DNA from: Luidia sarsii
Taxonomy: Eukaryota > Echinodermata > Asteroidea > Paxillosida > Luidiidae
DNA: 64,000 nucleotides
Reading direction: 5' to 3'
NCBI GenBank assembly: GCA_949987565.1
Contig: OX465113.1
Location: 8,756,899 to 8,820,898 of the forward strand
Positions 9,061 to 59,109 of this stretch are shown here, in pieces. A program made the translations under genes and the position numbers. The first letter of the stretch is position 1. Each line of letters begins with the position of its first letter. Under the pieces are notes generated by a model that ran no database searches, was not told the DNA's origin, and worked only from the letters and a program-made list of their open reading frames with translations.

Positions 9061-9171
9061 AATTATTCATTGTTACACGTGGGACGGGAGTCGTCGGGTT
9101 GAAGCCTATCAATCAAATGGCTCACCCTCCGTTGTTGTCGTCTCAACAAAATAGGGTTACTTCGCACTGAC

Positions 9172-10445: not shown

Positions 10446-12594
10446 AAAAAGGAGGCAGGCAGGGCAGACAGGGAAGGCAGGGCAGGCAGACAGGGCAGGC
10501 AGGCCGGGAGAGAGGCAGGGAGTAAAGGAGGCAGACAGGGCAGACAGGCCGGGAGAGAGGCAGGGAGTAAAGGAGGCAGGCAGGCCGGGAGAGAGGCAGG
10601 GAGTAAAGGAGGCAGGCAGGCCGGGAGAGAGGCAGGCAGACAGGGCAGACAGGGCAGGCAGGGCAGGTAGACAGGACAGGCAGGCCGGGAGAGAGGCAGG
10701 CGGACAGGGCAGACAGGGAAGACAGGGCAGGCAGGGCAGGCTGACAGGGCAGGTAGGCCGGGAGAGAGGCAGGGAGTAAAGGAGACAGGCAGGGCAGACA
10801 GGGCAGGCAGACAGGGCAGGCAGGGCAGGCAGACAGGGCAGGCAGGCCGGGAGAGAGGCAGGGAGTAAAGGAGGCAGACAGGGCAGACAGGGCAGGCAGA
10901 CAGGACAGGCAGGCCGGGTGAGAGGCAGGGAGTAAAGGAGACAGGCAGGGCAGGCAGGGCAGGCAGGGCAGGCAGACAGGGCAGGCAGGCCGGGAGAGAG
11001 CCAGGGAGTAAAGGAGGCAGACAGGGCAGACAGGGCAGGCAGGGCAGGCAGACAGGGCAGGCAGGCCGGGAGAGAGGCAGGGAGTAAAGGAGGCAGGCAG
11101 GGCGGGAGAGAGGCAGGCAGACAGGGCAGGCAGGGCAGGCAGACAGGGCAGGCAGGCCGGGAGAGAGGCAGGGAGTAAAGGAGGCAGGCAGGCCGGGAGA
11201 GAGGCAGGCAGACAGGGCAGGCAGGCCGGGAGAGAGGCAGGGAGTAAAGGAGGCAGGCAGGCCGGGAGAGAGGCAGGCAGGCAGGGCAGGCAGGGCAGGC
11301 AGGGCAGGCAGGCAGACAGGGCAGGCAGGCCGGGAAAGAGGCAGGGAGTAAAGGAGGCAGACAGGGCAGGCAGGGCAGGCAGACAGGGCAGGCAGGCCGG
11401 GAGAGAGGCAGGGAGTAAAGGAGGCAGGCAGGGCAGGCAGGGCAGGCAGGGCAGGCAGACAGACAGGGCAGGCAGGCCGGGAGAGAGGCAGGGAGTAAAG
11501 GAGGCAGGCAGGCCGGGAGAGAGGCAGGCAGACAGGGCAGACAGGGCAGGCAGGGCAGGCAGACAGGGCAGGCAGGCCGGGAGAGAGGCAGGGAGTAAAG
11601 GAGGCAGGCAGGGCAGGCAGGGCAGGCAGGGCAGGCAGACAGACAGGGCAGGCAGGCCGGGAGAGAGGCAGGGAGTAAAGGAGGCAGGCAGGCCGGGAGA
11701 GAGGCAGGCAGGCAGGGCAGGCAGGGCAGGCAGACAGGGCAGGCAGGCCGGGAAAGAGGCAGGGAGTAAAGGAGGCAGACAGGGCAGGCAGGGCAGGCAG
11801 ACAGGGCAGGCAGGGCAGGCAGACAGGGCAGGCAGGCAGGGCAGACAGGGCAGGCAGACAGGGCAGGCAGGGCAGGCAGACAGGGCAGGCAGGGCAGGCA
11901 GACAGGGCAGGCAGGCAGGGCAGGCAGGGCAGGCAGACAGGGCAGGCAGGCCGGGAGAGAGGCAGGGAGTAAAGGAGGCAGACAGGGCAGGCAGGGCAGG
12001 CAGACAGGGCAGGCAGGGCAGGCAGACAGGGCAGGCAGGGCAGGCAGACAGGGCAGGCAGGCAGGGCAGGCAGGGCAGGCAGACAGGGCAGGCAGGCCGG
12101 GAGAGAGGCAGGGAGTAAAGGAGGCAGACAGGGCAGGCAGGGCAGGCAGACAGGGCAGGCAGGCCGGGAGAGAGGCAGGGAGTAAAGGAGGCAGACAGGC
12201 AGGGCAGGCAGGGCAGGGCAGACAGGGCAGACAGGGCAGGCAGGGCAGGCAGGCAGGGCAGGCAGGGCAGGCAGGGCAGGCAGGCCGGGAGAGAGGCAGG
12301 GAGTAAAGGAGGCAGACAGGCCGGGAGAGAGGCAGGCAGACAGGGCAGACAGGGCAGGCAGAGCAGGCAGGGCAGGGCAGACAGGGCAGACAGGGCAGGC
12401 AGGGCAGGCAGGCAGGGCAGGCAGGGCAGGCAGGGCAGGCAGGCCGGGAGAGAGGCAGGGAGTAAAGGAGGCAGACAGGCCGGGAGAGAGGCAGGCAGAC
12501 AGGGCAGACAGGGCAGGCAGGGCAGGCAGGGCAGGCAGGGCAGGAAGGGCAGGCAGGCCGGGAGAGAGGCAGGGAGTAAAGGAGGCAGACAGGC
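10446..12594. repeat. 2.1-kb GGCAGGCAGG minisatellite with higher-order units
   Basis: Built from GGCAGGCAGACAGG-like blocks. A larger recurring block contains CCGGGAGAGAGGCAGG and GGAGTAAAGGAGGC. The minus strand stays open throughout as Pro/Cys/Leu-rich sequence because the unit lacks stop codons. It runs directly into the LINE A ORF1 zinc-knuckle codons at 10445. Confidence 0.9.
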
Positions 12595-12879
12595 ATACCG
12601 GGATAATCCGTCATTGTCGTTTCATTTTTTGCGACTATACATGCACCGTGACACCAAGAGCTTGCTTCGCCGGTCGAAGGTGTGAAACGACCCGGTCGTT
12701 AGTCTACGATCCTCGCCAACCCCCACCCCCAGTCTATCGTACCCTGTCAAGAGGATCATCGTCGTGTGACGAGTTGCAACCCCCCACCCCCATGGCTGTG
12801 CCTCGAGCGGCGGTCATTAGTGGGTATACCGCCGTTAAAACACGGAACCAATAGAAGGCGGTGTGCACTGCACTCAATG
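12595..12879. other. unique sequence between minisatellite and duplicated block
   Basis: No gene recognised. Holds two similar short stretches with CCCCCACCCCC-type C-runs (near 12720 and 12780). Confidence 0.3.
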
Positions 12880-15044: not shown

Positions 15045-18000
15045 TCCCCTTCTCTTCCCTTCCCTTGCCTTCCCTCCACTCCCCTTCCCTTCCCTCCACT
15101 CCCCTCGCCTTGTCTTGCCTTCCCTCCCCTTACCTTCCATCCCCTCCCCTCCCCTCCCCTCCCCTCGCCTTGCCTTGCCTTCCCTTACCTTCCCTCCACG
15201 CCCCTTCCCTCCCCTTCCCTCCACTCCCCTTCCCTCCCCTCCCCTCCCCTCTCTTCGCCTTGCATTCCCTTCCCTTCCCTCCGCTCCCCTCCCCTCCCCT
15301 CCCCTCCCCTCCCCTCCCCTCCCCTCCCCTCCCCTCCCCTCCCCTCCGCTCCCCTTCCCTCCACTCCCCCTCCCCTCCCCTCGCCTTGCCTTGCCTTCTA
15401 TCCCCTTCCATTCCCTCCCCTCCCCTCCCCTTCCCTTCCCTCCGCTCCCCTCCACTCCCCCCTCCCCTCCCCTCCCCTCCACTCCCCTCACCTCCCCTCC
15501 CCTTCCCTCCCCTTCCCTCCCCTTCCTTCCCATCCCCTCCCCTCCCCTCCCCTCCCCTTCCCTCTACTCCCCTCCACTCCCCTCCCCTTCCCTCCCCTCC
15601 CCTCCCCTCCCCTCCCCTCCCCTCCCCTCCCCTCCCCTCCCCTCCCCTCCCCTCCCCTCCCCTCCCCTCCCCTCCCCTCCCCTCGAATTGCCTTCCCTCC
15701 CCTTCTCTCCGCTCCCCTCCCATTCCCTCCCCTCCCCTCCCCTTCCCTTCCCTCTGCTCCCCTCCACTCCCCCCCCCTCCCCTCCACTCACCTCACCTCC
15801 CCTCCCCTTCCCTCCCCTTCCCTCCCCTCCCCTCCCCTTCCCTTCCCTCTGCTCCCCTCCACTCCCCCCCTCCCCTCCACTCACCTCACCTCCCCTCCCC
15901 TTCCCTCCCCTTCCCTCCCATCCCCTCCCCTTCCCTCCACTCCCCTCCACTCCCCTCCCCTCCCCTCCCCTCCCCTCCCCTCCCCTCCCCTCCCCTTCTC
16001 TCCACTCCCCTCCCCTCCCCTCCACTCCCCTCCCCTTCCCTCCGCTCCCCTCCGCTCCCCTCCCCTCCACTCCCCTCCCCTCCCCTTCCCTCCACTCCCC
16101 TCCTCTCCCCTCCCCGCCACTCCCCTCCCCTTTCCTCCACTCCCCTCCCCTCCCCTCCCCTCCCCTCCACTCCCCTCCCCTCCCCTTCCCTCCGCTCCCC
16201 TCCCCTTCCCTCCACTCCCCTTCCCTTCCCTCCTCCCCTTGCCTTCCCTCCACTCCCCTCACCTCCCCTTGACTTCCCTCCCCTCCCCTCCCCTCGCCAT
16301 GCCTTCCCTCCACTCCCCTTCCCTCCCCTTGCCCTGCCTTCCCTCCCCTTCCCTCCACTCCCCATCCCTCCCTTTCCCTTCCCTCCTCTCCCCATCCCTC
16401 CCCTCCCTTTCCATCCCTCCCCTTACCTTCCCATCCCTTCCTACCCTTCCCTACCCCTCCCTTCCCATCCCTTCCCTTTCCTACCCTTCCCATCCCATCC
16501 CTTCCCTTCCCATCCCCCTTCCCTCCCCTCCCCTTCTTATCCCTTCCCATCCCTTCCCTCCCCTTCCCATCTCTTCCCTACCCTTCCCTTCCATACCCTT
16601 CCCATCCCTTCCCTTTCCTACCCTTCCCATCCCATCCCTTCCCTTCCCATCCCCCTTCCCTCCCTTCCCTTCTTATCCCTTCCCATCCCTTCCCTCCCCT
16701 TCCCATCTCTTCCCTACCCTTCCCTTCCATACCCTTCCCATCCCCCCTTCCCACCCCATCCCTTTCCTACCCTTCCCTTCCCTACCCCTCCCTTCCCATC
16801 CCTTTCCTTCCCTTCCCTTCCCTTCCCTTCCCATCCCTTCCCTTTCCTTCCATTCCCATCCCTTCTCATCCCTTCCCTACCCTTCCCGCCCCTTCCCTTC
16901 TTATCCCTTCCCACCCCTTCCCTCCCCTTCCCGTCTCTTCCCTACCCTTCCCTTCCATACCCTTCCCTTCCCTACCCTACCCTTCCATCTTCCCTACTCC
17001 CCTCTACTACCATCCCTTCCCTCCACTCCCCCTCCCCTCCCCTCGCCTTGCCTTGCCTTCTATCCCCTTCCATTCCCTCCACTCCCCTCGCCTTGCCTTC
17101 CCTCCCCTTCCCTCCACTCCCCTCCCCTCCCCTCCCCTCCCCTCCCCTCCCCTTCCCTCCACTCCCCCTCCCCTCCCCTCGCCTCCCCTCGCCTCCCCTC
17201 GAATTGCCTTCCCTCCCCTTCCCTCCACTCCCCTTCCCTCCCCTCCCCTTCCCTCCACTCCCGCTCCCCTCCCCTCGCCTTGCCTTGCCTTCTATCCCCT
17301 TCCATTCCCTCCACTCCCCTCGCCTTGCCTTCCCTCCCCTTCCCTCCACTCCCCTTCCCTCCCCTCCCCTCCCCTCCGCTCCCCTTCCCTCCAATCCCCC
17401 TCCCCTCCCCTCCCCTCGCCTTGCCTTCCCTCCCCTTCCCTCCACTCCCCTTCCCTCCCCTCCCCTCCCCTCCCCTCCCCTCGAATTGCCTTCCCTCCCC
17501 TTCTCTCCGCTCCCCTCCCATTCCCTCCCCTCCCCTTCCCTTCCCTCCGCTCCCCTCCACTCCCCCCTCCCCTCCCCTCCACTCCCCTCACCTCCCCTCC
17601 CCTTCCCTCCCCTTCCCTCCCCTTCCCTCCCCTTCCTTCCCATCCCCTCCCCTCCCCTCCCCTCCCCTCCCCTTCCCTCCACTCCCCTCCACTCCCCTCC
17701 CCTTCCCTCCCCTCCCCTCCCCTCCCCTCCCCTCCCCTCCCCTCCCCTCCCCTCCCCTCCCCTCTCCTCCCCTCCCCTCCCCTCCCCTCCCCTCCCCTCC
17801 CCTTCTCTCCGCTCCCCTCCCATTCCCTCCCCTCCCCTCCCCTTCCCTTCCCTCCGCTCCCCTCCACTCCCCCTCCCCTCCACTCCCCTCACCTCCCCTC
17901 CCCTTCCCTCCCCTTCCCTCCCATCCCCTCCCCTTCCCTCCACTCCACTCCCCTCCCCTCCCCTCCCCTCCCCTCCCCTTCCCTCCACTCCCCTCCCCTC

Positions 18001-21000
18001 CCCTCCACTCCCCTCCCCTTCCCTCCGCTCCACTCCCCTCCCCTCCCCTCCCCTTCGCTCCGCTCCCCTCCCCTTCCCTCCCCTCCCCTTCCCTTCCCTC
18101 CTCCCCTTGCCTTCCCTCCACTCCCCTCACCTCCCCTTGACTTCCCTCCCCTCCCCTCCCCTCGCCATGCCTTCCCTCCACTCCCCTTCCCTCCCCTCCC
18201 CTCCCCTCCCCTTCCCTCCACTCCCCTCCCCTCCCCTCCACTCCCCTCCCCTTCCCTCCGCTCCACTCCCCTCCCCTCCCCTCCCCTTCGCTCCGCTCCC
18301 CTCCCCTCCCCTCCCCTCCCCTCCCCTCCCCTCCCCTCCCCTCCCCTCCCCTCCCCTCCCCTCCCCTCCCCTCTCCTCCCCTCCCCTCCCCTCCCCTCCC
18401 CTCCCCTCCCCTTCTCTCCGCTCCCCTCCCATTCCCTCCCCTCCCCTCCCCTTCCCTTCCCTCCGCTCCCCTCCACTCCCCCTCCCCTCCACTCCCCTCA
18501 CCTCCCCTCCCCTTCCCTCCCCTTCCCTCCCATCCCCTCCCCTTCCCTCCACTCCACTCCCCTCCCCTCCCCTCCCCTCCCCTCCCCTTCCCTCCACTCC
18601 CCTCCCCTCCCCTCCACTCCCCTCCCCTTCCCTCCGCTCCACTCCCCTCCCCTCCCCTCCCCTTCGCTCCGCTCCCCTCCCCTTCCCTCCCCTCCCCTTC
18701 CCTTCCCTCCTCCCCTTGCCTTCCCTCCACTCCCCTCACCTCCCCTTGACTTCCCTCCCCTCCCCTCCCCTTGCCATGCCTTCCCTCCACTCCCCTTCCC
18801 TCCCCTCCCCTCCCCTCCCCTTCCCTCCACTCCCCTCCCCTCCCCTCCACTCCCCTCCCCTTCCCTCCGCTCCACTCCCCTCCCCTCCCCTCCCCTTCGC
18901 TCCGCTCCCCTCCCCTCCCCTCCCCTCCCCTCCCCTCCCCTCCCCTCCCCTCCCCTCCCCTCCCCTCCCCTCCCCTCCCCTCCCCTCCCCTCCCCTCCCC
19001 TCCCCTCCCCTCCCCTCCCCTCCCCTCGAATTGCCTTCCCTCCCCTTCTCTCCGCTCCCCTCCCATTCCCTCCCCTCCCCTCCCCTTCCCTTCCCTCTGC
19101 TCCCCTCCACTCCCCCCCTCCCCTCCACTCACCTCACCTCCCCTCCCCTTCCCTCCCCTTCCCTCCCATCCCCTCCCCTTCCCTCCACTCCCCTCCACTC
19201 CCCTCCCCTCCCCTCCCCTCCCCTCCCCTCCCCTTCTCTCCACTCCCCTCCCCTCCCCTCCACTCCCCTCCCCTTCCCTCCGCTCCCCTCCGCTCCCCTC
19301 CCCTCCACTCCCCTCCCCTCCCCTTCCCTCCACTCCCCTCCTCTCCCCTCCCCGCCACTCCCCTCCCCTTCCCTCCACTCCCCTCCCCTCCCCTCCACTC
19401 CCCTCCCCTCCCCTTCCCTCCGCTCCCCTCCCCTTCCCTCCACTCCCCTTCCCTTCCCTCCTCCCCTTGCCTTCCCTCCACTCCCCTCACCTCCCCTTGA
19501 CTTCCCTCCCCTCCCCTCCCCTCGCCATGCCTTCCCTCCACTCCCCTTCCCTCCCCTTGCCCTGCCTTCCCTCCCCTTCCCTCCACTCCCCATCCCTCCC
19601 TTTCCCTTCCCTCCTCTCCCCATCCCTCCCCTCCCTTTCCATCCCTCCCCTTACCTTCCCATCCCTTTCCTACCCTTCCCTACCCCTCCCTTCCCATCCC
19701 TTCCCTTTCCTACCCTTCCCATCCCATCCCTTCCCTTCCCATCCCCCTTCCCTCCCCTCCCCTTCTTATCCCTTCCCATCCCTTCCCTCCCCTTCCCATC
19801 TCTTCCCTACCTTTCCCTTCCATACACTTCCCATCCCTTCCCTTTCCTACCCTTCCCATCCCATCCCTTCCCTTCCCATCCCCCTTCCCTCCCCTTCCCT
19901 TCTTATCCCTTCCCTCCCCTTCCCATCTCTTCCCTACCCTTCCCTTCCATACCCTTCCCATCCCCCCTTCCCATCCCATCCCTTTCCTACCCTTCCCTTC
20001 CCTACCCCTCCCTTCCCATCCCTTTCCTTCCCTTCCCTTCCCTTCCCTTCCCATCCCTTCCCTTTCCTTCCATTCCCATCCCTTCCCATCCCTTCCCATC
20101 CCTTCCCTACCCTTCCCGCCCCTTTCCTTCTTATCCCTTTCCACCCCTTCCCTCCCCTTCCCATCTCTTCCCTACCCTTCCCTTCCATACCCTTCCCTTC
20201 CCTACCCTACCCTTCCATCTTCCCTACTCCCCTCTACTACCATCCCTTCCCATCCCTTTCCTACCCTTCCCTACCCCTCCCTTCCCATCCCTTCCCTTTC
20301 CTACCCTTCCCATCCCATCCCTTCCCTTCCCATCCCCATTCCCTCCCCTTCCCTCCCATCCCCTCCCCTTCCCTCCACTCCACTCCCCTTCCCTCCACTC
20401 CCCTCCCCTCCCCTTCCCTCCACTCCCCTCCCCTCCCCTCCACTCCCCTCCCCTTCCCTCCGCTCCACTCCCCTCCCCTCCCCTCCCCTCCCCTTCCCTC
20501 CGCTCCCCTCCCCTTCCCTCCCCTCCCCTTCCCTTCCCTCCTCCCCTTGCCTTCCCTCCACTCCCCTCACCTCCCCTTGACTTCCCTCCCCTCCCCTCCC
20601 CTCGCCATGCCTTCCCTCCACTCCCCTTCCCTCCCCTTGCCCTGCCTTCCCTCCCCTTCCCTCCACTCCCCATCCCTCCCTTTCCCTTCCCTCCTCTCCC
20701 CATCCCTCCCCTCCCTTTCCATCCCTCCCCTTACCTTCCCATCCCTTTCCTACCCTTCCCTACCCCTCCCTTCCCATCCCTTCCCTTTCCTACCCTTCCC
20801 ATCCCATCCCATCCCTTCCCTTCCCATCCCCCTTCCCTCCCCTCCCCTTCTTATCCCTTCCCATCCCTTCCCTCCCCTTCCCATCTCTTCCCTACCCTTC
20901 CCTTCCATACACTTCCCATCCCTTCCCTTTCCTACCCTTCCCATCCCATCCCTTCCCTTCCCATCCCCCTTCCCTCCCCTTCCCTTCTTATCCCTTCCCT

Positions 21001-22048
21001 CCCCTTCCCATCTCTTCCCTACCCTTCCCTTCCATACCCTTCCCATCCCCCCTTCCCATCCCATCCCTTTCCTACCCTTCCCTTCCCTACCCCTCCCTTC
21101 CCATCCCTTTCCTTCCCTTCCCTTCCCTTCCCTTCCCATCCCTTCCCTTTCCTTCCATTCCCATCCCTTCCCATCCCTTCCCTACCCTTCCCGCCCCTTT
21201 CCTTCTTATCCCTTTCCACCCCTTCCCTCCCCTTCCCATCTCTTCCCTACCCTTCCCTTCCATACCCTTCCCTTCCCTACCCTACCCTTCCATCTTCCCT
21301 ACTCCCCTCTACTACCATCCCTTCCCATCCCTTTCCTACCCTTCCCTACCCCTCCCTTCCCATCCCTTCCCTTTCCTACCCTTCCCATCCCATCCCTTCC
21401 CTTCCCATCCCCATTCCCTCCCCTTCCCTTCTTATCCCTTCCCATCCCTTCCCTCCCCTTCCCATCTCTTCCCTACCCTTCCCTTCCATACCCTTCCCAT
21501 CCCCCCTTCCCATCCCGTCCCTTTCCTACCCTTCCCTTCCCTACCCCTCCCTTCCCCTCCCTTTCCTTCCCTTCCCTTCCCATCCCATCCCTTCCCTTTC
21601 CTTCCATTCCCATCCCTTCCCATCCCTTCCCATCCCTTCCCTACCCTTCCCGCCCCTTCCCTTCTTATCCCTTCCCACCCCTTCCCTCCCCTTCCCATCT
21701 CTTCCCTACCCTTCCCTTCCCTACCCTTCCCATCCCTTCCCTTTCCTTCCATTCCCATCCCTTCCCATCCCTTCCCTACCCTTCCCGCCCCTTCCCTTCT
21801 TATCCCTTCCCACCCCTTCCCTCCCCTTCCCATCTCTTCCCTACCCTTCCCTTCCCTACCCTTCCCTTCCCTACCCTTCCCATCCCTTCCCTTTCCTTCC
21901 ATTCCCATCCCTTCCCATCCCTTCCCTACCCTTCCCGCCCCTTCCCTTCTTATCCCTTCCCACCCCTTCCCTCCCCTTCCCATCTCTTCCCTACCCTTCC
22001 CTTCCCTACCCTACCCTTCCATCTTCCCTACTCCCCTCTACTACCAAT
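15045..22048. repeat. ~7-kb polypyrimidine satellite (CCCCT / CCCTTCC type)
   Basis: Almost every base on the plus strand is C or T, in units such as CCCCT, CCCTTCC and CCATCCCTTCC. It has higher-order structure. Blocks ending in TCTACTACCA recur near 17000, 20240, 21320 and 22045, and the last three show about 1.08-kb and 0.73-kb spacing. Blocks with CCCTCGCCATGCC recur near 16300, 18170, 19530 and 20610. No frame meets stop codons often, so all six frames look open; these are not genes. Copy number in the assembly is doubtful. It ends about 100 bp before the CARD gene start codon. Confidence 0.95.
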
Positions 22049-22148
22049 CGTACCGAAAATACATTAATGTTTAATCATTATTGTATCCACCAGATTATTA
22101 TTTCAATAACGTGAGGTGGAAACAAGGAAGGAGCGAGTGACTTCAAAC

Positions 22149-25100
22149 ATGGACCGGGCCACTCGCAAGAAGTTGTTGGACTCCAAGACGCGGGAGCTCC
22201 TCGACGTCATGGACGCGGAGAAACTCTCGCGAGACCTGAGCGAGCGGGGAGGCATCAGCGAGGACATACGGGACCTGATCGTGCGGCAGAAAACGGCCAA
22301 GGAGCGGTCGGCCAAGCTCCTGGCCGTACTCAAGACCCTGAGCGCCGAGAAGTACGAGCTCTTCTGCCGTCTGCTGGCGGACGAGGGCCACGCCGCGCTG
22401 GCCAAGCAGCTGACTAAGACGAAGGAGGAGGAGGAGGACCGGCCCGGCACCAACAGCAACTGCAAGTCCACGACCCGCGCCAACGGTAAGCGCAACTGGC
22501 ATTGTATTTCTCCCCCTCCCGGCCCTCCAACTGGGACTCAAGACCCAAGACTCAAGACTGCTTTTCCTGATGCTTGATTCAGGCAGGTCGGCCTTGAAAT
22601 GTTTTCATCAGGCATCGGGCAAAGCACTATAATTATACTAGGCACTCACTAGTGCACTCACCGTCCAGCAGGGCAACCCTCGTTGAATTACATTCTTCTC
22701 AACGCAAACGCCATGTTATATCATGACACTAAAATGAAGAATAGCTGACTATTGTTCGATTTCGAGCTGGCAAACTCACTATACGCAGCAATAATTGCTG
22801 ATCATGTGAGTGATCCATTTAATTCTATTCTTACTCTCCCTGATGATTCGATATCAGATATGAGTGTACTGGGCATATAATCCCTCGGTCACCGTATAGT
22901 AATGCTGTCCGTCTAAGCCGTGAGAAAATGTGGATGAAGCGTCTTCGGACTATTAAACCACATGGTCTCAAGTCTCAACATCCACTAACACCATGCAGCT
23001 TTCTGATAATCCCTCTTTTGTGTTCACTCCTCCACTTCTCTCTTTGATCTGTGCCCTTCCTTACTCCTTGCCCTTCCCTTTGATCTCTCCCTACCAGCTT
23101 TACTATTTGTCTTTTATTTCTCATCCGTGTCCTATTGTGTCTCCGTGTCTCTTCCCCCTCTAGCGCTTTGTTTTGCTTTGCCGGAACTTCTTTGTTGGCA
23201 GTCTGCTTAAAAGGCTAATGCTTAAAAGAACTCGTGCCCGACTCCAGTCTTTATCGCACAGACTACATGTATAACTGAGCCCGACTCGAAGCTTCGGGTG
23301 CCCGCGGCTCGTAACCGGACTCACGGTACGGTAATTGATGATTGGGACTCAGTTTCAGACATCACTCCGGTCTTTGTGACTCGTGCCGGACACCAGTCTT
23401 ATATGTGACTCAAGACTCGGACTCAAGTCTTTTCCCACCCGGCACGGACTCGGTCTCGGGTGACGACAGCGGATAACTCGGACCCACGACTTGTTAAAAA
23501 AACACACACACGATACCTTGCGATATTGGTCTTTGCGACATTGGTGGACGCTGAATTAAACTGCAATAATTGATTGGCAGGTGGCGGCTTTGAAAGAACC
23601 GCATTAGAGTCACGTGACAGACAGGTTTTGCTAGCAGAGGTAAATTAATCATTGCCGTGCAGTGGAGGCAACGTATTCACCCCTTTTTTGGTTTGAATTA
23701 AACCAGTAAAATAAATTCAATGAAGGTTTGCCACGCTCGACATAATAAGCACTCACTGCAAAGTGCTTTTCCTGATGCTTGATGAAAAAAAATCAGGCGG
23801 GTCGGCCTTGAAATGTTTTTATCAGTCATCGAGCAAAGCACTATATACTAGGCACTCACCGTGCACTAGTGCATTATTCCGTCCAGCAGGGCAACTCTCG
23901 TTGAATTACATTCTTCTCAACGCAAACGCCATGTTATATCATGACACTAAAATGAAGAATAGCTGACTATTGTTCGATTTCGAGCTGGCAAACTCACTAT
24001 ACGCAGCAATAATTGTTGATCATGTGAGTGATCCATTTAATTCTATTTTTACTCTCCCTGATCATTCGATATCAGATATGAGTGTACTTGGCATATAATC
24101 CCTCGGTCACCGTATAGTAATGCTGTCCGTCTTAGCCGTGAGAAAATGTGGATGAAGCGTCTTCGGACTATTCAACCACATGGTCTCAACATCCAGGAGG
24201 GTAATGACTAACACCATGCAGCTTTCTGATAATCCTTCTTTTGTGCTCACTCCTTCACACTTCTCTCTTTGATCTTCCCCCTCTTCTCACTAATCCCTAC
24301 CCTACTCCTTGCCCTTCCCTTTGATCTCTCCCTACCAGCTTTACTCTTTGTCCTTTGTTTCTCATCCGTGTCCTATTCACTATCTTCACCCTTCCTTCGT
24401 GTACATGTATCTGTTTTTTGCTTGTCACTCTGCCTTTGAGAAAGGTCCTGCTAGGATCGAAACGTCAGGCCCACTAAATTTTAAGATTTGCATTTTGGTA
24501 ATTTTAGTCAGTAAGCAACATTTTTGTATATCACTCTAATTCTATTCTTAAAGTGATATACACAAATGTTGCCAACTGCTTACTGTCTAAAATTACCAAA
24601 ATGCAAAACTTAGAATCTCAAAGGCAGAGTCTGCCTTTGAGAAAGGTCCTGCTAGGATCGAAACGTCAGGCCCACTAAATTTTATAATTCTATTCTTGTT
24701 AAAAACCTAAAAGAAAAAAACCCTCCAACTCCACCCACCCCCAAAAAAATCCAAGATGAATGAGTGCTTTTTGGATCCCGCTTTCGAGAGTCTTCCTTTG
24801 GCAAAAACAGGAAGTGCACCACCCTGGATAATTGGTGAAGCAGTTTGCGTTGCCAAGGTGATTGATCAACAGGGAGGATGTGTTGCGTAGTACATGCAAG
24901 ATACTGCGTAAGCAAATCAGGGGTTTCGTCCTTTTGATACTTCTATTATTATCTTCCAGTATTTATGAGGTGTACATGTATCTGTTTTGTGTCCTTGTCA
25001 CTCCGCCTTTGAGAAAGGTCCTGCTAGGATCGAAACGTCAGGGCCACTTAATTTTTGAGATTTGCATATTGGTAATTTTAGTCAGTAAGCAGTTTGCAAC

Positions 25101-28100
25101 ATTTTTGTATATCACTTCAGTATTCATGAAGTTAAAGGTATACAGAAATCAGAATTAACTTGGGGTTAAATAAATTGGTATTGTTATAAAACCCAAAGTA
25201 TCTATAATTTTTAAGACCAAAAATGATTGATTTAGTCCCCAAAACGCTACATTTTGGTCCGAAAATTGTGCCCCCCCCCTTTGGAGACGAACGTACTACG
25301 TCACATACAGAATTTGTGGTCAGCCTTGAGGTCGTGCGCTTTGCACTGGCTCTGCATTGTCTTTATTGTCTATCAGCCGTAAATACCGCACTGTCACATG
25401 CGCAGTAGTGCACTTTATCGTCTCAGCATTTCGATCCCCTTGCTCGGCTGCTTTTTGTCTGTATGTGACGTCACACGCTCACAGGGGGAATTTTTGGGGG
25501 GCGGTGCGAACATGGACTTTTTCAATGTTTTGGGACGAAATTAGGCGCTAACATTAAAAAAAATTAATCCTGTATTGATTATATTGTGAACATTACCTAA
25601 GGAGAGTTTTGAGCTCTTTTTTCAAATCCTATTTCTGTAAACCTATAAAAGGGGAATGCAACCCAAGAAATAAAGTTAGCTTAGCCGATTGCGGGTGTCA
25701 AAAACAACCTACAATTACCTATGATTCACTCACGTACGATTTTCATAAAAGAGAAAATTCATGGAATTGTAGGTCGAATTTGCGTTCCCGTACGTAGCCA
25801 TCTTTTCGAAGGTGTCGCCACTGTTTGCTGGGGGTGTAATTTCACGACGGAATGACGGCAACCCATAGAGCTCTATAAATAAACATTTCGAACGTTCGCA
25901 AAGCATCATGGGTATAGATGACAAACTGGCCGTATTTTTATCACACAACTCTATGGCGATTTTACATGCTTCTCCATAGAGTTGTGTTATAAAAATACGG
26001 CCAGTTTGTCATCTAGGGCCTATACCAATAATGCTTTGCGAACGTCGAAAATGTCTTAAACTTGTTCAATCCTTTAAATTTTAACTAAAGTTATTAATCA
26101 ACATTTTCACAAAGTCATACATAAATATAAACCAAATAAATATTTAAAATTATACTGGTATTTTTTCAAATTAATTTAGATTTTTGTTTTAAATAAAGAA
26201 ATCAAACTGATTCATGCAGTCTTCTCCGAGAAGGATCTCACATGCACGTGTTTGGGAGAATATGTAAACATTCATGCAGGGACCGACAAGAAAACAATTC
26301 GGAAATTCTTGAATCTGTCGAATCACGTGTTGCCACCGCTGGTCGATTTGGAATATCCTTTCTCGACTTCGAGGCGGTGAGTTTGGCCCGCAAGTTCTCC
26401 TCCCATTCCTTCTCTGTGAAGCATGGAGGTGAAGTGATCGCTCATGTACAAAAATAATCACATTCACATCCTTTCGATTTCTATTGAGTATTGGTAGCAG
26501 ATTTTGAGAAATTTCTCCGCTTTTATGGCCGCAGCCCACTTCCTAAGCAACTCAGTTTTCTTGTCCTTATTGGGAATTGCGTGGAAAGTGTTTTCCATCT
26601 TTTTCTCGCTGACATTTTTACAACCAAAAGCCTGGCAGTACATCGTTCAGCTCTTGAGTGTACACAAACTGCGCGCAGTAGGGGGCACATCCGGGCACCT
26701 TACTCATAGTCATACGGCAGTTATCCGTCCTCGCGTCACATTTCCACAACCAGCGGCGGCTTTTTCGAAAAGATGACTAAGTACGGGAACGCAAATTCGA
26801 CCTACAATTCCATGAATGTTCTCACTTTATGAAAATCGTACGTGAGTGACTCATATGTAATTGTTGGATGTTTTTAACACCCAATCAGATAAGCTAACCT
26901 TAATATCTTGGGTTTTATTCCCCTTCAATACAAAAACTGTTGCAAACTGCTCATTGACAAAATGACCTGCAATACATAAATGTCGAAAGTTAGAGGGCCT
27001 GACGTTTCGATCCTAGCAGGACCTTTCTCAAAAGCAAAGTGACAAGGACAAACACAAACACAGTCAGGGGAAGGTAAGCTTTGACACACATGACAGAGGA
27101 AGGACAAACAGGAACCAGTTTGAACCAGTATTCAAACAGACTACAATTTTTTCTGCTGCCGGAATTATTTATACTGTCAGTCGTGTCACTACAGAAGGGA
27201 GAAAATTTAATTATTTGGGTGGAATCAGTACCCGTTTACAATTTCCTCTCGGACGAATCTGCTAAAACACGAGCTCTAAAATTGAAGTGGTCATCTTATA
27301 GTTTAGCAAAGTCGATGTAAATAAATGCACCAAGGTCACGTGATGAACGGATCGTTAAAATGAAAGATGAAGAGGCTAGCTAGGATAGTTTATTGGAATT
27401 TAATCCGGGCGATTCGCAATAGTGCGCCCTCATGGTTTTGGTGGTGGTGGTGGTGATGACGAAGGGAATGTTGCTGATAATGGTGATGATGGAGGTGACG
27501 GTGTGGATAGTGATGGTTTTGAAGATGGTGATGGCGGTGGTGCTGAATATTTCAGGTGGTGGTAGTGGTAATGGCGGTCATGATGGTGATAATGGTGATG
27601 GCGGTGTGGATGATGATGGCTTTGGTGGTGGTGGTGGTGGTGATGACGAAGGGAATGCTGCTGATAATGGTGATGATGGAGCTGGGTGGTGATGGTTTTC
27701 AAGATGGTGATGGCGGTGGTGCTGGTATTGCAGGTGGTGGTAATGGTAATGGCGGTCATGACGGTGATGGTGTTGACGGTGTGGATGTGATGGTGTTTTG
27801 TTGATGGTGGTGGATGGTTGATGCCGAGAAAGGAGACGAAGGATAAAAGAGAGTGCGAAGAAAGGAAAGAAAAACGTCGTAATTATACGAGTGAAGGCAG
27901 TGGCGCTGCACGATCCTCACGTCCCCCCTCACCCCCTCTCTCTCTCTCATCATCTCGCCGCAGGCGGTCACCGCAAGACGCCGACCGGCGCCTCCGCCTC
28001 CGCCAAGGTCTATGCCGAGGCGCTCTGGAGCTGCCGCAACCGCTTCATCACCGACGTGGCCGCCGACCCGGAGGGCCTGGCGGCCCGGCTGGCCGCCGCC

Positions 28101-31100
28101 AAGGGCCTGGCTCTCTCGGCGTCGGCCCGGCGGAGTCTGGAGCGGGCCCGGGAGGCCGAGGCCAAGGCCCAGCTCCTCTTCGACGCCGTCCGGCCGGCCG
28201 TCAGAGGGCGGGCCAGCTTCGCCGAGCTCCTCCGCGCCCTGGAGGGGCCGTTCCCGGACCTGTCCAGTTACCTGGAGAAGGAACTGAAGGCTCTGGCACC
28301 GACCAAGAAAAGTGAGTGCAGAGTGACACCCTCTAGAAAGCGGTGCACTTCTCTGCGTGTCTTGTTTTTTGTAATTGAGTTTTGTTTTGGGTGTTGTTGG
28401 GTGGGGTGGGGGTGGTGGGGACCAAATCATAATCACTCTCGCATTTTTGTGCGTTAGCCACAACAACGTCACAAAGCATTCTCAAAACATTTGTTGGTTT
28501 TCAATTTGGTTGAAATCCCGGTTGACTGGAAGTTTTCTTTGCCATTTTTGTAGTCTATCGATTTTTAAATGGAAAAGAACATTTCATATCACCAGAAATG
28601 ACAGATTATCAACTGATGCAAATGACAACTACTTGGATTTTAGGTGATCGAAGTTCAATTGGTTGGCTTTGTGTTTATTTCATGAGGTGCTGGTAGCGCC
28701 AAGCGGATTGCCGTGGAAGGAAAAGACGGCACCGACACCACCGCCGCCCCGCCGGGCGGCGAAGCCGACGGCCCACCGCCACCGCCACCGCCGGCGGCGG
28801 CGCCGGCCGGTGACGGCAGCGACCTGGTGACCTCGCTGGCCAACCTCCAGTTGGACCTGGCCGAGTCGCAGAGCGGCACCCTCCGCCAGTCGCAGCAGCT
28901 GGAGCGCTGCATCCAGGCCACGGCCGAGGCCAACGAGGCCACGCGCCGCCTGGAGGTCCGCCTCCGCCAGGCCGAGGAGCAGCGCGACGCCGAGGCAGGC
29001 CGGGCCGAGGCCAGCCGCCGGGCGGCCGAGGACTCCCGCCTGGCGCTGGACGCCGGCCTGGCCGAGGTGGCCGCCGAGCGCCGGATGCTGGAGGAGCAGC
29101 GCGGCAAGAGCGAGGCGCAGCTCCGGCGCCGGATGGAGGTGCTGGACATGCAGCGGGAGCAGTTCCTGGCCTCCATGCACGTGGAGCTCCAGCGGCAGGA
29201 CGAGAAGCAGCGCCAGCTCAACGTGCGCCAGCTGGAGCGCGAGGACGTCCTGGAGAGCAAGAGCCTGCAGGTCGTGCAGCGCGGGAACCGGCAGGACCGG
29301 CGGAGCGCCGACCACCACACCCGGCGGGACCGACTGCGGGAGCGCGAGAACACCGTCGTCCTGGGCGAGTCCAGGCTGGCCCAGCGGGAGCAGGAGGCGG
29401 CCCAGCGGGAGGCTCTCCTAAAGAAGCTGGAGATGGACCAGCATCGGAAGAAGATCGAGCTGGGCCGGTTAGAGGAGCACGTCCGTATGGTGGAGGCCAC
29501 CCAGGCCCGGGCCGGCCAGGAGCTGGCGCAGCGGGAGCGGGCCCTGGCGGGGGCCGAGGAGGACGTCCGCCTCATCGGCGAGCGGCTCCGGCAGCGCGAG
29601 CAGAGCCTGACGGAGAGGGAGCGGGAGGCGGAGGACCGGAGCCTGGCGCTCCGAGAGGCGGACGAGGAGCTGCAGCGGTCCCGGGGCGAGGTGGAGAAGC
29701 GGGAGCGCCGGGCGGAGGAGACGGAGCAGGAGCAGCGGGCCTTTGAGGGCACCCTGGAGTCCAAGGCCCGGGAGCTGAGCGGCGCGGCCACGGCGGCCAC
29801 GGGCAAGGAGGAGGAGCTGGCCCGCAAGGAAGAGGAGATGATTGCCCGGGCTCGGCAGCTGAACAGCCTGGAGGGCGTGCTGGACTGCCGCCTCCAGGCC
29901 CAGGAGCGGATGGAGCGGGCCCTCCGCATGATTGAGGTGGAGCAGATCCGCCGCGACCGCGAGATCCTCGACCGGGAGGCCAACCAGCTCGGCGTCCGCC
30001 TGGCGGACCAGCAGCGCTCCGGCTCCGGCGACGCCGATCAGCTGCTGGAGACGAGCCTGCGGGAGCTGGAGAAGGAGGACGGGCCCGGGGACCGCAAGCT
30101 GATGAGCTGGGTGGAGGTGGAGCGCCAGCGGCAGACCATGGAGGAGCAGCGCGAGCAGCTGAGGGAGGCAAGGTCCCGCGGGGGAGCCGGCGACAGGCCG
30201 GGGGCTGGGCAAGCATCGGGGACGGAGGGGCACGGCAAAGGAAGCAAGGCTGCCAAGGAGAAGGAGCAGCGGGACGGGGAGCAGAAGGAGGCGGCGGCGG
30301 CGGAGGAGGAGGAAGAGGAGGAGGGCGCCCGGCGCGCCGAGGCGGCCTCGGTGGCCAGCTCCTTCACCAGCCTGGGCGCCGACAGCGAGGCGGAGACCTA
30401 CGGCTACGCGGTGGAGCTGAAGGGGGCGCGCGCCGTCAAGAGCGGCACCAAGGCCTCCTTCGACCTCCGGGTGGCCGGCCAGCAGAGCGTGGCCGCCTTC
30501 AAGAACATCCTGGACACGGAGGAGGGCATACCGGCCGGCTGGCAGAGTCTCCTGCTCCGGGGCAAGGTACTGGACGACGGCCAAACCTTGCCCGGCGACA
30601 AGGAGGCCACCGTGCAGCTGCAGCTGAAACTGGCCCCGTCCCCGGTAAAGGAACGGGACCTCTTGAAGTTGAAGGTTGGTCTCCCAAAAAATCTCTCTAT
30701 CTCTACCCCCCTCTGTCTCCCTCTGTCGATCTGTCTGCCTGCCTGTCTGTCTGTTATGTCAAGCTAACCAGGTAAACCAACCTCACTGGTTTGCCTTTGC
30801 CATCATTGACGCCTTTGTTAATTTCGTCGCTGATGTTCACTGTCACCCACTGTCGCCCTCCATCCAGGTAAAGACCAGCAGCGGCAAGACGCACTCCATC
30901 GACTTCTCGCTGCAGGACACGGTGGCCCTGGCCAAGTCGCGCATCTACAAGTACACCGGCATCGCGCCCCACCAGCAGCGGCTGTCCTACCGGGACGTGC
31001 TGCTGGAGAACCACGCCCCGCTCCAGCTCTACTCCATCCGCAAGAACGCCTGCCTGGACCTGCGGCTCCGCTTCCGGCTCGTGTCCGAGTTCTCCGGGCA

Positions 31101-33267
31101 GTGCCGGACCGAGCTCACCGCCGACGAGATGAACACCGTGGCCAACCTCAAGGCCATGATCTTCGAGCAGACCGACCTGCCGCTGGACAATCTGAAGGTA
31201 AAAAATGGCTAAGATCTGGGGCTCATTTCATAGAGCCGCTTAAGCGACAAAAATGTGCTTTAAGCCCAAAAACTCATGAGCCACATGATCCCCATGCCTA
31301 TCCAAGGTTCACCAATGTTTCATGCAACGTAAAAAATTCAACTTACAAGTGAAAAAGGAATGGACATCATATTTCAGTGCAGTTTGTAATTTCCTGCTTA
31401 CACAATTAAGACTTCTCCTGCTTAGCAAATTTTCACGCTTAAGCGGCTTTATGAAATTGGGCCCTGATCAGGTCACGAATGACGACGAGCGGAGTATACA
31501 CACAACCCGACACGTTGAGTTGCCGGCTATTTTCAGAGCCACACTCCGTCTCAAAATACAGACTCTGCTGGACTATGGCAGGGTTTTTTTTGCCAGTCGC
31601 TGTCAACATCTGGAATATATATATGCTTCCCCCTGGCCCTGATATCATTGGGCAGCCCTCAAAGGAGGGGTCTCAGAGTTTTAAGGAGGCTGTACATCAT
31701 TTCTTGCTTGGCCAGACATAGTCCACGGCTTCATATACAGTGTATTACAGTTCAGATTTCCCCAGCACATTTCTAGGCATCTTTTTCTAAAGTCCTATTA
31801 ATGTTGCTGTGCGTGCTCTTTGCCTGTTGTATTTTGTTTTTGTGAGATTTTTTGAATTCCCTCCAGCGCTGTTTGTCATTTTTGACCGTAGTTGGCGGGA
31901 TTGGGTTTTGTATAAATAAAAATATAAATATAAATATAAGAACTTGAGACTGACTTGAGTCCGAGACCTTTGTATTAACGTTGCTCTGTCTTAAAAGAAG
32001 ACGAAGCTGCAATCTCCTTGTAATTTGTGATCCCTGCACTTCTGTAGCCAAGGTTTACCAAGGTTTTCGTCAATAAGACTTGAAGGTTTGCATGGTGGAA
32101 ATGCTTAGTGGAATGTTTGCGGTGACACCGTGTATATAGCACTTCACTCTCAAGGACTTTGGTTCTGAAAAAAAGTGCCGCTAAGAATTACCGGATGTTT
32201 TCAGAGCCACACTCCGTCCCCCAAAAAGAGATGTCATACTCTTATCATGGTGTCACCACAAACCTTCCACTGAACGGGAAATATGTGCCCCCAGTATTAT
32301 CATAGAGCGCCCAGTACACACACAGGGTTAAGTTGGTTTTCCTTTAGGCCTACCAACGGTCATAGCTCAACTTTTGAAATGTGTTTCGTCAATTTCGAAA
32401 ATCCACCACAGATATGCCAAGTGTAGCGTTTCAGATTTAGGAAAAAATATACATATTTGAAATAGACTGGCTCATCCATGAAGGAGTTGGGAGTTTTCCT
32501 TCCAAAATGGATCCAGTTTGGGGATTTCTATTACACTGGGAACTAAGTTTGTGGATTATTATTTGTCGTTTCGATCTTATACCAGAGCTTGATATCTCAG
32601 AGAGTTGCATTGATAATTACCTTTGAGAAAAGTTCTGTTTGGGTGCAGACGTCAGGCCCTGTTAGTGTCTATTAAGATCTGCGATTTGCTCGTTGAAGTC
32701 AGTGGGTACAGGTCTATAACGGGTACAGGTACAGGTCTATAACGGTTGCTCTCTCTCTCTCTCTCTCTCTCTTCTCCTTCCTCTCCCCTCCTCCCTCCTG
32801 CCCGATAAACATAGGTGTCGTACAAGGGGAAGGCGCTTGACGATCACCGCACCCTGTCTCACTACTCCATCGGTGAGGGCGCCGTCCTCTCCGTGGCCTG
32901 CCCCGTGCCGGTCAAGTTGGCCGGGACGTGCGGCCAGCTGGTGACGGTGAACCTGGAGCCGGGCGCCACCACGGTGCGGGAGCTGAGGAGCCTGCTGGCC
33001 AAGGCCAAGGTGAGCTGCGAGACGGTGGCCTCCGGCGACAACGACGACAACGACGACGGCGACCCGCTGGACGAGGACCAGGACGTGCTGGAGGTGGTGC
33101 GCAGCGGGAAGACCATTGTCGTCCGGGGCGGAGCCGGCGGCGGCGAGGCCGCGGCCCATCAAGCTGCCGCCGGCCCGGGCAAGTCTGCCGCCGGCGCCCC
33201 GCGGGGCGCGGGGAAGGCGGAGAAGGGTCTCGACCTCAGCGTGGTGGGCTCCCAGAATGTGGCCTAG
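22149..33267 (+). CDS. CARD-CARD-coiled-coil-ubiquitin-like multidomain protein, 5 exons, 1,151 aa
   Basis: Exons: 22149-22485, 27964-28311, 28687-30674, 30868-31197 and 32815-33267 (TAG). Borders are GT/AG, phases are 1, 1, 0, 0, and the total is 3,456 nt = 1,151 aa plus stop. Residues 1-90: death-fold/CARD (MDRATRKKLLDSKTRELLD..., SAKLLAVLKTLS, YELFCRLLADEGHAALAKQL). Residues 128-224: a second, weaker CARD (LWSCRNRFITDV, AQLLFDAV, FAELLRALEGPFPDLSSYL). Residues about 275-750: a long Glu/Arg/Gln-rich coiled coil, then a charged Gly/Ala/Glu linker. Residues about 815-880, 887-961 and 958-1029: three ubiquitin-like folds, the third with TVANLKAMIFEQTDLPLDNLKV. A fourth degenerate one spans about 1032-1106. 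The protein ends SVVGSQNVA, so there is no Gly-Gly for conjugation. By analogy CARDs recruit signalling partners by homotypic contact, so a cytosolic innate-immunity or cell-death scaffold is likely (inference). The start is the first ATG before the CARD. Joining exon 1 across the 5.5-kb intron is the weakest link. Confidence 0.8.
22555..23020 (+). repeat. duplicated block, copy 1, ending in a Penelope ORF tail
   Basis: Matches 23766-24230: GCTTTTCCTGATGCTTGAT, AACGCAAACGCCATGTTATA and GAGTGATCCATTTAATTC occur in both. At the same point both switch into the C-terminal coding end of the Penelope-like element (DDSISDMSVLG-type reading, then TMW/MWMKRLRTI). Copy 1 carries in-frame damage. A shared junction means the block was duplicated after the Penelope insertion. 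Confidence 0.85.
23766..24230 (+). repeat. duplicated block, copy 2, ending in a Penelope ORF tail
   Basis: Second copy of the 22555-23020 block with the same Penelope junction near 24055. It is followed by the full Penelope 3' region down to the terminal hairpin motif at 24433. Confidence 0.85.
24055..24540 (+). mobile_element. Penelope-like element 3' fragment
   Basis: Carries the last ~45 codons of the Penelope ORF (a stop replaces a codon after VLGI), then the 3'UTR with CCCTTCCCTTTGATCTCTCC and the terminal hairpin motif at 24433-24472, ending near TTTTTGTATATCACT. Homologous to 61630-62150. Confidence 0.85.
24545..25115. mobile_element. two further Penelope terminal-repeat fragments
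   Basis: The hairpin motif (TTTGAGAAAGGTCCTGC...GATCGAAACGTC) recurs at 24634-24672 and 25006-25045. The stretch 24545-24625 also has a reversed terminal piece (AGTGATATACACAAATGTTGC), so one terminal repeat sits head to head with another. Confidence 0.8.
25271..25503. mobile_element. small inverted-repeat element (MITE-like)
   Basis: CCCCCC...ACTACGTCACATACAG at the left end (25271-25310) and its imperfect complement CTGTATGTGACGTCA...GGGGGG at the right end (25459-25501). About 230 bp with no coding capacity. Confidence 0.55.
25630..26938. repeat. foldback structure with ~170-bp imperfect inverted arms
   Basis: The left arm 25630-25808 and the right arm 26766-26938 are reverse complements with scattered changes; shared core: GTAGGTCGAATTTGCGTTCC. 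The inside holds a second, tighter hairpin (25893-26045) and about 0.7 kb of AT-rich sequence. The foldback sits between two Penelope terminal repeats in opposite orientation (25006 and 26995). Confidence 0.85.
25893..26045. repeat. near-perfect hairpin, ~65-bp arms, 17-nt loop
   Basis: The left arm 25893-25956 (contains GATGACAAACTGGCCGTATT) pairs with the right arm 25974-26045 (AATACGGCCAGTTTGTCATC); the few differences are small indels. The loop lies around 25957-25973. Such a long stem is unusual for an ordinary intron and would be a good Dicer-type substrate if transcribed. Confidence 0.85.
26995..27080 (-). mobile_element. Penelope terminal-repeat fragment, reverse
   Basis: Reverse copy of the terminal hairpin motif (GGGCCTGACGTTTCGATCC at 26995, then AGGACCTTTCTCAAA), followed by decayed terminal-repeat sequence. 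Confidence 0.8.
27430..27815. repeat. GGT/GAT-rich microsatellite
   Basis: Irregular TGGTGGTGATGATGG units. A ~180-bp block (GGTGGTGATGACGAAGGGAA...) occurs twice, near 27450 and 27635. The tract lies just upstream of exon 2 of the CARD/UBL gene, inside its first intron. Confidence 0.9.
31218..31464. mobile_element. 247-bp MITE in intron 4 of the CARD/UBL gene
   Basis: Terminal inverted repeats of about 28 bp: left GGGGCTCATTTCATAGAGCC..., right ...GCTTTATGAAATTGGGCCC. A second copy lies at 33446-33669 in the 3'UTR region of the same gene. Confidence 0.8.
31480..31940 (+). mobile_element. degraded non-LTR retrotransposon 3' end
   Basis: Plus-strand frames show pieces like GRVFFASR and VAVNIWN...PSKEGSQSFKEAV, which resemble the usual LINE C-terminal pattern (RT...WN..P...S...F). 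It ends in an (AAATAT)n tail at 31911-31938, typical of a LINE 3' end. Frameshifted. A family-level call is not possible. Confidence 0.45.
31965..32814. other. rest of intron 4: dispersed repeat remnants and a CT tract
   Basis: 31995-32090 resembles 41370-41450 (shared pieces: AAGCTGCA, GTGATCCC, CTGTAGCCA, GGTTTAC), so it is a dispersed repeat. 32620-32670 holds a decayed Penelope terminal motif. A (CT)n tract precedes the exon 5 acceptor at 32748-32771. Confidence 0.5.
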
Positions 33268-41547: not shown

Positions 41548-41619
41548 GGCTGGATAGCTAGATGGTAAGACCACTGGCACGTAAAACCAGAGGTCTCGGG
41601 TTAAATTCCAGGTCCAGTC
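41548..41619 (+). repeat. tRNA-like sequence, probably a SINE head
   Basis: 72 nt with a pairing acceptor stem (GGCTGGA/TCCAGTC, one G-T), an A-box TAGCTAGATGG and a B-box-like GGTTAAATTCC (one base off). The anticodon arm is distorted (CTGG...CCAG with an oversized loop), so a functional tRNA is unlikely. The upstream 41370-41450 belongs to a dispersed repeat. Confidence 0.5.
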
Positions 41620-43250
41620 AAAGTTTTCTTTTCCATTTTAAAGATTATTTTGTTTACATTTCCCCAGTATTACTTTATTTAATTTATATTTAACGTAAAA
41701 GTGATACAAAAATAAGAAACGTTCAGGTGAAGTAAAAAATAAAAATCATGTTTTGGGGACCCGCTTGGATTTGTTTTATTTTTTGGCAGTAAGAACCACC
41801 GAAAAAGTCCACAAATTCATCGGTTAATGCAATACACCACTAATTAAGCACTAAATATGTTCAGTTCTCATGGGCAGCTTGTCTTTCATTTTAAAATTAT
41901 CTTTGAACATCTCTACGTGTCCATAATTGTATTATTTGCTTTTAAGTCATAATAAAATGACGTTCAATAAAGTGACGGTCGTGTTCGGACCAACAAACTT
42001 GGTTTTATCAAACTGTTTTAACTGTTGCTAAAGTTGTGCTTCCTCGTGACGAATAATAATTACCAAATGCCACTGGATATAGAGCTCATAAAAAGCATAC
42101 TTTTACCTGATAATGATCGTTCAAAGGATTGACTTACCAACAACGTTTGTGAACGTGTGTCAACGAGCGCATAACCTAATACCCACACTTACTTAACTTA
42201 CGGCCTGCGTGTGTGAAACGTCTTTCGACGACCTCGCCGTAAAGTACGACGTATACCAACGAGGTTCAGCGTGCTCTTTATACAAAACCTACCGTAACGT
42301 ATTCGACGTACGACAGCGCATTCGCATTTATTTCGTTTTCATACGTGCGACAGGGTCATAATACGTGCTTCGTTGTGTATCGTGTAATATTGTATGCTGC
42401 ATATGCAGTCCAGGCTTGTATGCAGACACTTCGTATGCGTTACGACTCCTCTACTACGGTTTGACTTTACAGCTATAGGTAAATATTGTACAGAATTCCG
42501 TGAAGAGAAAATTGAATAAAGATGAGTTTATTTCAGTTCGGCTTTGAGGCAAAGAGGAATTGTCCTAAAAGGCCCTGACATAAAAGAGAATGAGCCTACT
42601 GATAAAGTAGAAAACTCGAGCAGTGGCGAGAACGCTCGGGTGGGGTCCGTGGGTGTGAGCGGTGCCCAAGCCCCCACGACCCCCGGCCATAAATTATGGC
42701 GTGCTCGCTCGCGCACCAAAACAACGACAAACACGGCAACGTCGCGTGGGAAACCTCGACTACGCCTACGACTATAAGGCAAAGGACAAAGGACAAAGGG
42801 GAAAGTAGGTTTTCTGTTGTTCGGCAAACTCGAATCCCTAGTCTTATTAATTCTCTTGTACCGTTTTTTTTAGGTTTGTTATTCCCCCCCAAAGCCTACA
42901 TGTGCATTTGAACGTGAAAGACTCGTTAGTCTTACTTTCTTGCAGCTTAAAGGCCCAATACAACATTGGGAAGATCGGAAAGCTTAGTTCACAATTACAG
43001 TACTGGGACAAAGAAACAGAGATATTATGAGCAATTCAGGGAATCGGAGAAGTTCCAAACCCCCACACAGAGAAGACTTGTGTGACTCGAGACTGTTATT
43101 TAGAAATTAGTACCAAAAATTTGTAGCAAACTGCTGACTAAGATGACCTGCAATATATAAATCTCAAAAGCTTTGAGAAAGGTCCGGCTATGATCGATGA
43201 TTCGCACTTACGTTATGATTTTAAATGATTCGGACCCACTGGGTCGATCT
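41620..43250. other. intergenic region, no gene recognised
   Basis: Mostly AT-rich. 42530-42910 has open frames on both strands but no recognisable domain and poor codon character. A TTAAAGGCCC-type repeat starts at about 42947. A decayed Penelope terminal motif lies at 43172-43200. Confidence 0.4.
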
Positions 43251-44945: not shown

Positions 44946-45002
44946 GGTGATCCGTGAGGTCTGGTCTCAGAAGACGGTCCGGCAAGACAACGACAACATC
45001 GC

Positions 45003-45040
45003 TGAGAGAAAGAGAGAGAGAGAGAGTGAGAGAGAGAGCA
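45003..45040. repeat. GA dinucleotide repeat in the GTPase leader
   Basis: AGAGAGAGAGAGAGTGAGAG-type purine tract about 70 bp before the start codon; a GAGA-like element. Confidence 0.75.
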
Positions 45041-45109
45041 GCAGCGTCAGCAGACTTGTATCTGATTCAAGCTCCCTGGTGGCAGCGATCCCGCCTAGAA
45101 GACAGAGAG

Positions 45110-58713: not shown

Positions 58714-58965
58714 TCTCATTAATCCCTACCCTACCCCCTGCCCTTCCCTTTGATCTCTCCCTACCAGCTTCACTCTTTGTCCTTTGTTTCTCATCCGTGT
58801 CCTATTCACTCTCCCCCCTTCCTTCGTGTACATGTATCTGTTTTGTCCTTGTCACTCTGCCTTTGAGAAAGGTCCTGCTAGGATCGAAACGTCAGGCCCA
58901 CTAAATTTTAGATTTACTTTTTGGTAATTTTAGTCAGTAAGCAGTTTGCAACATTTTTGTATATC
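58714..58965 (+). repeat. left terminal repeat (pseudo-LTR) of the Penelope element
   Basis: Pyrimidine-rich first half, then the terminal hairpin motif at 58860-58899: stem GGTCCT-GCT-AGGATC, then GAAAC and GTC. Ends at TTTTTGTATATC. Confidence 0.93.
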
Positions 58966-59109
58966 ACCTTAAGTCATTTCCTTATGTTGCTGTATCCCCT
59001 CGTGGTGATCCTCCTTGCTGACCTGTCTACGTGTGTATGTAAGTCTGTCCGTCCGTTGGTATGTAAGTCTGCGTTCTGTGTTTGTCTCTTGTTTTTTGCT
59101 CTTACTAAC

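Follow-up and report, generated by a model that had tools for sequence, protein, structure and literature searches.

Tandem CARD folds, a long coiled coil and an array of ubiquitin-like domains in a single predicted sea-star protein

Introduction

Known CARD proteins act in innate immunity or in the control of cell death, and some vertebrate CARD signalling, that of RIG-I above all, needs ubiquitin chains supplied at the right moment. The CARD-CC family (CARD9, CARD10, CARD11 and CARD14) is defined by a single CARD joined to a coiled coil, and the TBK1/IKK kinases consist of a kinase, a ubiquitin-like domain (UBL) and a coiled coil. CARD-CC proteins with Bcl10 and MALT1 are described as ancient in animals (PMC5978004), and the tandem CARDs of RIG-I are described as binding K63-linked ubiquitin and forming tetramers, with the two UBLs of OASL able to substitute (PMC4446440). 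Here we describe a gene of the sea star Luidia sarsii, at positions 22149-33267 of a 64,000-nucleotide stretch of contig OX465113.1 (henceforth the window), whose predicted product joins two N-terminal CARD folds, a long coiled coil and four UBLs in one chain of 1,151 residues.

The protein resembles each of these systems in part. With the CARD-CC proteins it shares an N-terminal CARD and a long coiled coil, but it has two CARD folds, the second of which, with a linker, intervenes before the coil, and it bears four C-terminal UBLs and no MAGUK part. The tandem N-terminal CARDs of RIG-I-like receptors (RIG-I, MDA5) are matched by its predicted folds, whereas its coil and UBLs set it apart from them, and Pfam finds neither a DExD/H helicase nor a C-terminal RNA-binding domain in the 1,151 residues. 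As in OASL, tandem C-terminal UBLs carry changed ubiquitin patch residues, but the CARDs lie in the same chain and the same Pfam search returned no OAS-like nucleotidyltransferase domain. The combination of UBL and coiled coil found in the TBK1/IKK kinases recurs in the opposite order, with CARDs and, by Pfam over the whole chain, no protein kinase domain; a match to TBK1_ULD is weak (17.4 bits against a cut-off of 31).

A sequence-only reading of the window had proposed five in-phase exons with a 1,151-residue product, two N-terminal CARD-like domains, a long coiled coil and three to four ubiquitin-like folds with no conjugation-type Gly-Gly end, and had known of no named family with this order. 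These claims hold in the present analysis, which found no such family either, puts the ubiquitin-like folds at four and recognises the second CARD by predicted structure only; two comparisons made in that reading, with CARD9/CARD11 and with a ubiquitin chain, fared less well, as discussed below. We put the chances at about even that the gene encodes a signalling scaffold combining CARD assembly with a built-in UBL docking array.

A Five-Exon Gene Conserved Among Sea Stars

The gene lies on the forward strand. Exon 1 (22149..22485) carries the start codon and CARD 1 (residues 1-92, 22149-22424), and exon 2 (27964..28311) carries CARD 2 (about residues 124-223). Exon 3 (28687..30674), in phase and collinear with the orthologues, encodes a linker, the coiled coil, an acidic linker, UBL1 and the start of UBL2, and has a Pfam ubiquitin match; exon 4 (30868..31197; Pfam ubiquitin E 7.2e-18) holds most of UBL2 and the first part of UBL3; and exon 5 (32815..33267) supplies the rest of UBL3, UBL4, a conserved tail and the stop codon. 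All four introns are GT-AG, every junction is in phase, the only stop is terminal, and each of the five exons has a third-position G+C content of 0.91-0.98. The ATG at 22149, preceded by an in-frame stop at 22107-22109, is conserved in three orthologues with the common start M[DE]R[AS]TR.

These orthologues came from a search of 5.8 billion proteins with residues 800-1115 of the window protein, which scored 6,486 candidates and returned six proteins at E 0.01; the best three (E <=9.0e-87) are all from sea stars, namely Acanthaster planci, Patiria miniata and Asterias rubens (P0001-P0003; 1,100, 1,102 and 1,092 residues). Aligned end to end, they are 48%, 49% and 44% identical to the window protein, respectively, and 34% of residues are invariant across the four species. 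Since the other three agree with one another at 64-83% identity, the Luidia protein, as judged by sequence, lies outside their group or has evolved faster. Database Pfam labels assign both CARD and ubiquitin to all three orthologues, whose NCBI names (trichohyalin-like, putative leucine-rich repeat-containing protein, uncharacterized) describe none of these domains; UniRef lists the Patiria entry under a name that starts with Ubiquitin. At the far end, all four species keep the tail motif LDLSV (spliced residues 1140-1144, at about 33229-33243), which resembles the CtBP-binding PxDLS motif.

Intron 1 is long (5,478 bases) and one donor, GTTGGT, is weak, features that would suit a chimera of neighbouring genes, but phases fit at every junction and three other sea-star database proteins have the same order and similar length. 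The orthologue proteins are themselves predicted database models, so support for the gene model amounts to sequence comparison; it is nevertheless far better support than splice sites could give, and because these predictions align over the whole length, the comparison places the five exons in one gene. The chimera reading is in practice refuted by the orthologues, and we give it a negligible probability.

About 130 bases separate the start codon from the end of a pyrimidine-strand array of about 7 kb (15045-22017), built of CCCTT and 20-base units. The promoter must therefore be very short, lie beyond the array or belong to an unseen 5' exon.

Two N-Terminal CARD Folds

Against a Pfam CARD (PF00619) gathering cut-off of 23.9 bits, CARD 1 scores 16.5 bits in the window, under the threshold, and 26.2-33.6 bits in the orthologues, where it passes in three of three. 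Its model (predicted local distance difference test, pLDDT, 86.6) has the six-helix death fold of CARD type, with the APAF1 CARD as best structural match. CARD 2 has no Pfam CARD match, either in exon 2 of the window or in the corresponding segments of the three orthologues; its model, built from four sequences (pLDDT 80.9), also shows a six-helix death fold of CARD type, with the CARDs of APAF1 and MDA5 as best matches. Tandem N-terminal CARD folds are thus shown at the level of predicted structure. Comparing the profiles of the two CARDs produced no signal. This says little about a recent CARD duplication, because with four sequences the method did not connect UBL4 to UBL2 or UBL3 either.

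Searches of the animal's own genome covered a 471-Mb assembly, in which the window lies on contig C15. Two equal-scoring CARD matches occur there on contig C4 (8463400-8463648 and 8472884-8473132), in opposite orientation and about 9 kb apart, likely an inverted duplicate.

The Coiled Coil and the Comparison With CARD-CC Proteins

The coiled coil spans about residues 273-735 (28818..30206, forward strand). It shows heptad periodicity: in each of the four species, the 3.5-residue hydrophobic signal of a 440-residue segment starting at residue 299 is stronger than in any of 300 shuffles, narrowly so in the window protein (0.34 against a top shuffle of 0.32) and in Asterias (0.39 against 0.38). 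Conservation within the coil is uneven: a sliding window picks out a box at residues 626-660 (29877..29981, forward strand) that is 89% invariant in the four species, and the coil start, residues 278-312, is 71% invariant. Pfam returned nothing credible for the box in two window pieces and in two of three orthologue segments. A ubiquitin-binding coil of the UBAN type, suggested by a loose resemblance to NEMO, was dropped for want of a credible Pfam match.

An N-terminal CARD, then a second CARD, then a long coiled coil is a layout that would fit a divergent member of the CARD-CC/Bcl10/MALT1 (CBM) system, in which CARD 1 and the coil would seed Bcl10 filaments and the UBLs would replace the MAGUK part of CARD11 as regulatory tail. 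The CBM system is described as ancient in animals (PMC5978004), and the CARDs of CARMA1 and CARD9 are among the structural matches. In the PDB comparisons, however, both rank below APAF1 and, for CARD 2, below MDA5 as well. The likeness to CARD9/CARD11 drawn in the sequence-only reading therefore stands as a resemblance of layout and is undercut by the second CARD fold and the nearer structural matches; we consider membership of that system rather unlikely.

The Ubiquitin-Like Array

The Pfam ubiquitin (PF00240) cut-off of 25.4 bits is passed in the window by UBL1 (residues 801-884, 30402..30653; 38.6 bits), by UBL2 (residues 885-961, from 30654 in exon 3 into exon 4) and by UBL3 (from exon 4 to 32907 in exon 5; 54.6 bits), all on the forward strand. 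UBL4 (32905-33135, same strand) passes it in the three orthologues (34.4, 34.6 and 26.0 bits), and because it does so the ancestral number was, by this comparison, probably four. Among whole domains, conservation is highest in UBL2, with 69% of residues invariant in the four species and 80% over residues 925-959. A search of the animal's own genome found no duplicate of exon 4; the next matches are a polyubiquitin on contig C10 (40%) and a weaker one on C1. A C-terminal Gly-Gly is lacking in all four proteins, and the RGG that occurs internally in the window protein (residues 1105-1107) is not shared by the orthologues.

With ubiquitin from the same genome as reference, the patch residues L8, I44 and V70 each prove to be replaced in all 16 UBL copies (four UBLs in four species), the alignment of UBL1 and UBL4 being the less certain. 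At position 44, UBL2 and UBL3 have serine or alanine, while UBL1 and UBL4 retain a hydrophobic or small residue (leucine, tyrosine, alanine or valine). Because of these replacements in all UBLs, plain mimicry of a ubiquitin chain appears doubtful, and the proposal that the UBLs stand in for such a chain is weakened; it is not refuted, since one of the two UBLs of human OASL, taken as a control, is also changed at L8 and I44 (position 70 fell outside the alignment). For the same reason, loss of the I44 patch was rejected as a disproof of CARD binding.

A switch in cis, resembling the action of OASL on RIG-I, thus stays a candidate of low probability. The UBLs would bind the tandem CARDs of their own or a neighbouring chain and drive or restrain assembly, making a ligase unneeded. 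Tandem CARDs occur in RIG-I and MDA5, both among the structural matches of CARD 2, the tandem UBLs of OASL reportedly act on the CARDs of RIG-I (PMC4446440), and the OASL control lacks the same two residues; but L8, I44 and V70 are all replaced, nearly 600 residues separate CARDs and UBLs, and the chain has no helicase or RNA-binding domain by Pfam. Decidedly unlikely, too, is the narrower proposal that the array would bind the tandem CARDs of the coiled-coil oligomer and organise them, replacing the separate ubiquitin-chain step of RIG-I, with the changed patch as a private CARD-binding surface. Docking to the proteasome is a common job of integral UBLs, as in Rad23-type proteins, and the UBLs might likewise dock this protein to the proteasome or other ubiquitin receptors, its role then being mainly turnover or shuttling. 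With the usual receptor-binding residues replaced in 16 of 16 UBL copies, and no UBA or other receptor domain found by Pfam, we hold this to be very unlikely.

Distribution of the Fusion

Besides the three sea-star proteins, searches with the UBL regions of the window and Patiria proteins, which covered candidates of 0.55-1.75 times the query length, yielded five poly-UBL proteins (P0004-P0008), none with a Pfam CARD match. The fusion is seen here only in sea stars, a restriction that is provisional given this range of lengths. A search of the same 5.8 billion proteins with the CARD half (residues 1-235) scored 7,994 candidates, none of which matched at E 0.1; as it also missed the known orthologues, this marks a limit of the search, not absence.

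P0004 has 1,366 residues with 11 ubiquitin stretches, a kinase domain and, by eye, a coil-like stretch between. P0006, from the sponge Halichondria panicea and named polyubiquitin-C-like, has eight Pfam ubiquitin stretches and a sub-threshold Death-domain match near its C-terminus (residues 910-984; 18.4 bits against a cut-off of 22.6). It shares with the starfish protein the many ubiquitin-like domains, but it has no CARD match, its weakly matched death fold lies at the opposite end, and the number and order of its UBLs differ; its sequence suggests a possible second, differently arranged fusion of UBLs with a death fold.

A Possible Signalling Scaffold

The scaffold reading takes the domain order and its conservation as its base. 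The protein would be cytoplasmic; the coil would make it multimeric, gathering many CARD pairs; the CARDs would seed a homotypic assembly or bring in a partner that has a CARD; and the UBL array, above all UBL2, would serve as a permanently attached docking platform. Genetic fusion would in this way do what other pathways achieve through ubiquitin attachment or a recruited UBL protein. That conservation peaks at the coil box, at residues 925-959 of UBL2 and at the coil start is consistent with such a scaffold. As known CARD proteins act there, innate immunity or cell-death control is by analogy the likely setting.

Several observations weigh against this reading. The fold of CARD 2 comes from a four-sequence model whose five runs spanned 80.9 to 55.9 in mean pLDDT, and among the Foldseek matches to the CARD 1 and CARD 2 models none reached E 0.001 (0/134 and 0/98). 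A CARD search of the animal's own genome gave five matches and missed exon 1 of the window, consistent with its sub-threshold score. In the window, UBL4 goes unrecognised by Pfam; it bears a GAC-rich acidic stretch (33037..33065, forward strand), absent from the three orthologues, and other changes. Finally, a CARD alone does not prove an immune function.

Surroundings of the Gene

Elsewhere in the window, an AGGC-type short-unit array of about 2.1 kb occupies 10453-12595. An open frame at 44951-45775 encodes a Ras-family GTPase (PF00071, E 8.2e-21; best PDB match Ral-A, E 1e-20). A 953-residue open frame at 58912-61773, with a GIY-YIG match over the cut-off and a reverse transcriptase match under it (25.4 bits), is presumably of Penelope-like type. 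On the minus strand, 8092-9066 and 50742-52172 are probable pieces of LINE-type elements, with a PF03372 endonuclease match over the cut-off and a zf-RVT match under it. An Rfam tRNA match at 41548-41620 scores 30.1 bits against a cut-off of 29 and was uncalled by ARAGORN with the bacterial code.

Implications

The domains of the protein are known ones in a new order, which has so far been encountered in sea stars only. Searches of open-licence PMC papers brought up no title or abstract start that describes a CARD-coil-UBL fusion, and no paper on CARDs combined with UBLs or ubiquitin in sea stars, invertebrates or Patiria, or on the Asterias locus number. Surprise is tempered by the domain rearrangement described for immune networks of amphioxus (PMC2575513) and by the sponge protein P0006, which suggests that fusions of UBLs with a death fold may have arisen more than once. 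With CARDs and UBLs in one chain, the sea-star protein offers a direct way to ask whether a UBL organises CARDs without a ligase, and it suggests that the immune or cell-death pathways of sea stars could be wired in ways not seen in vertebrate models.
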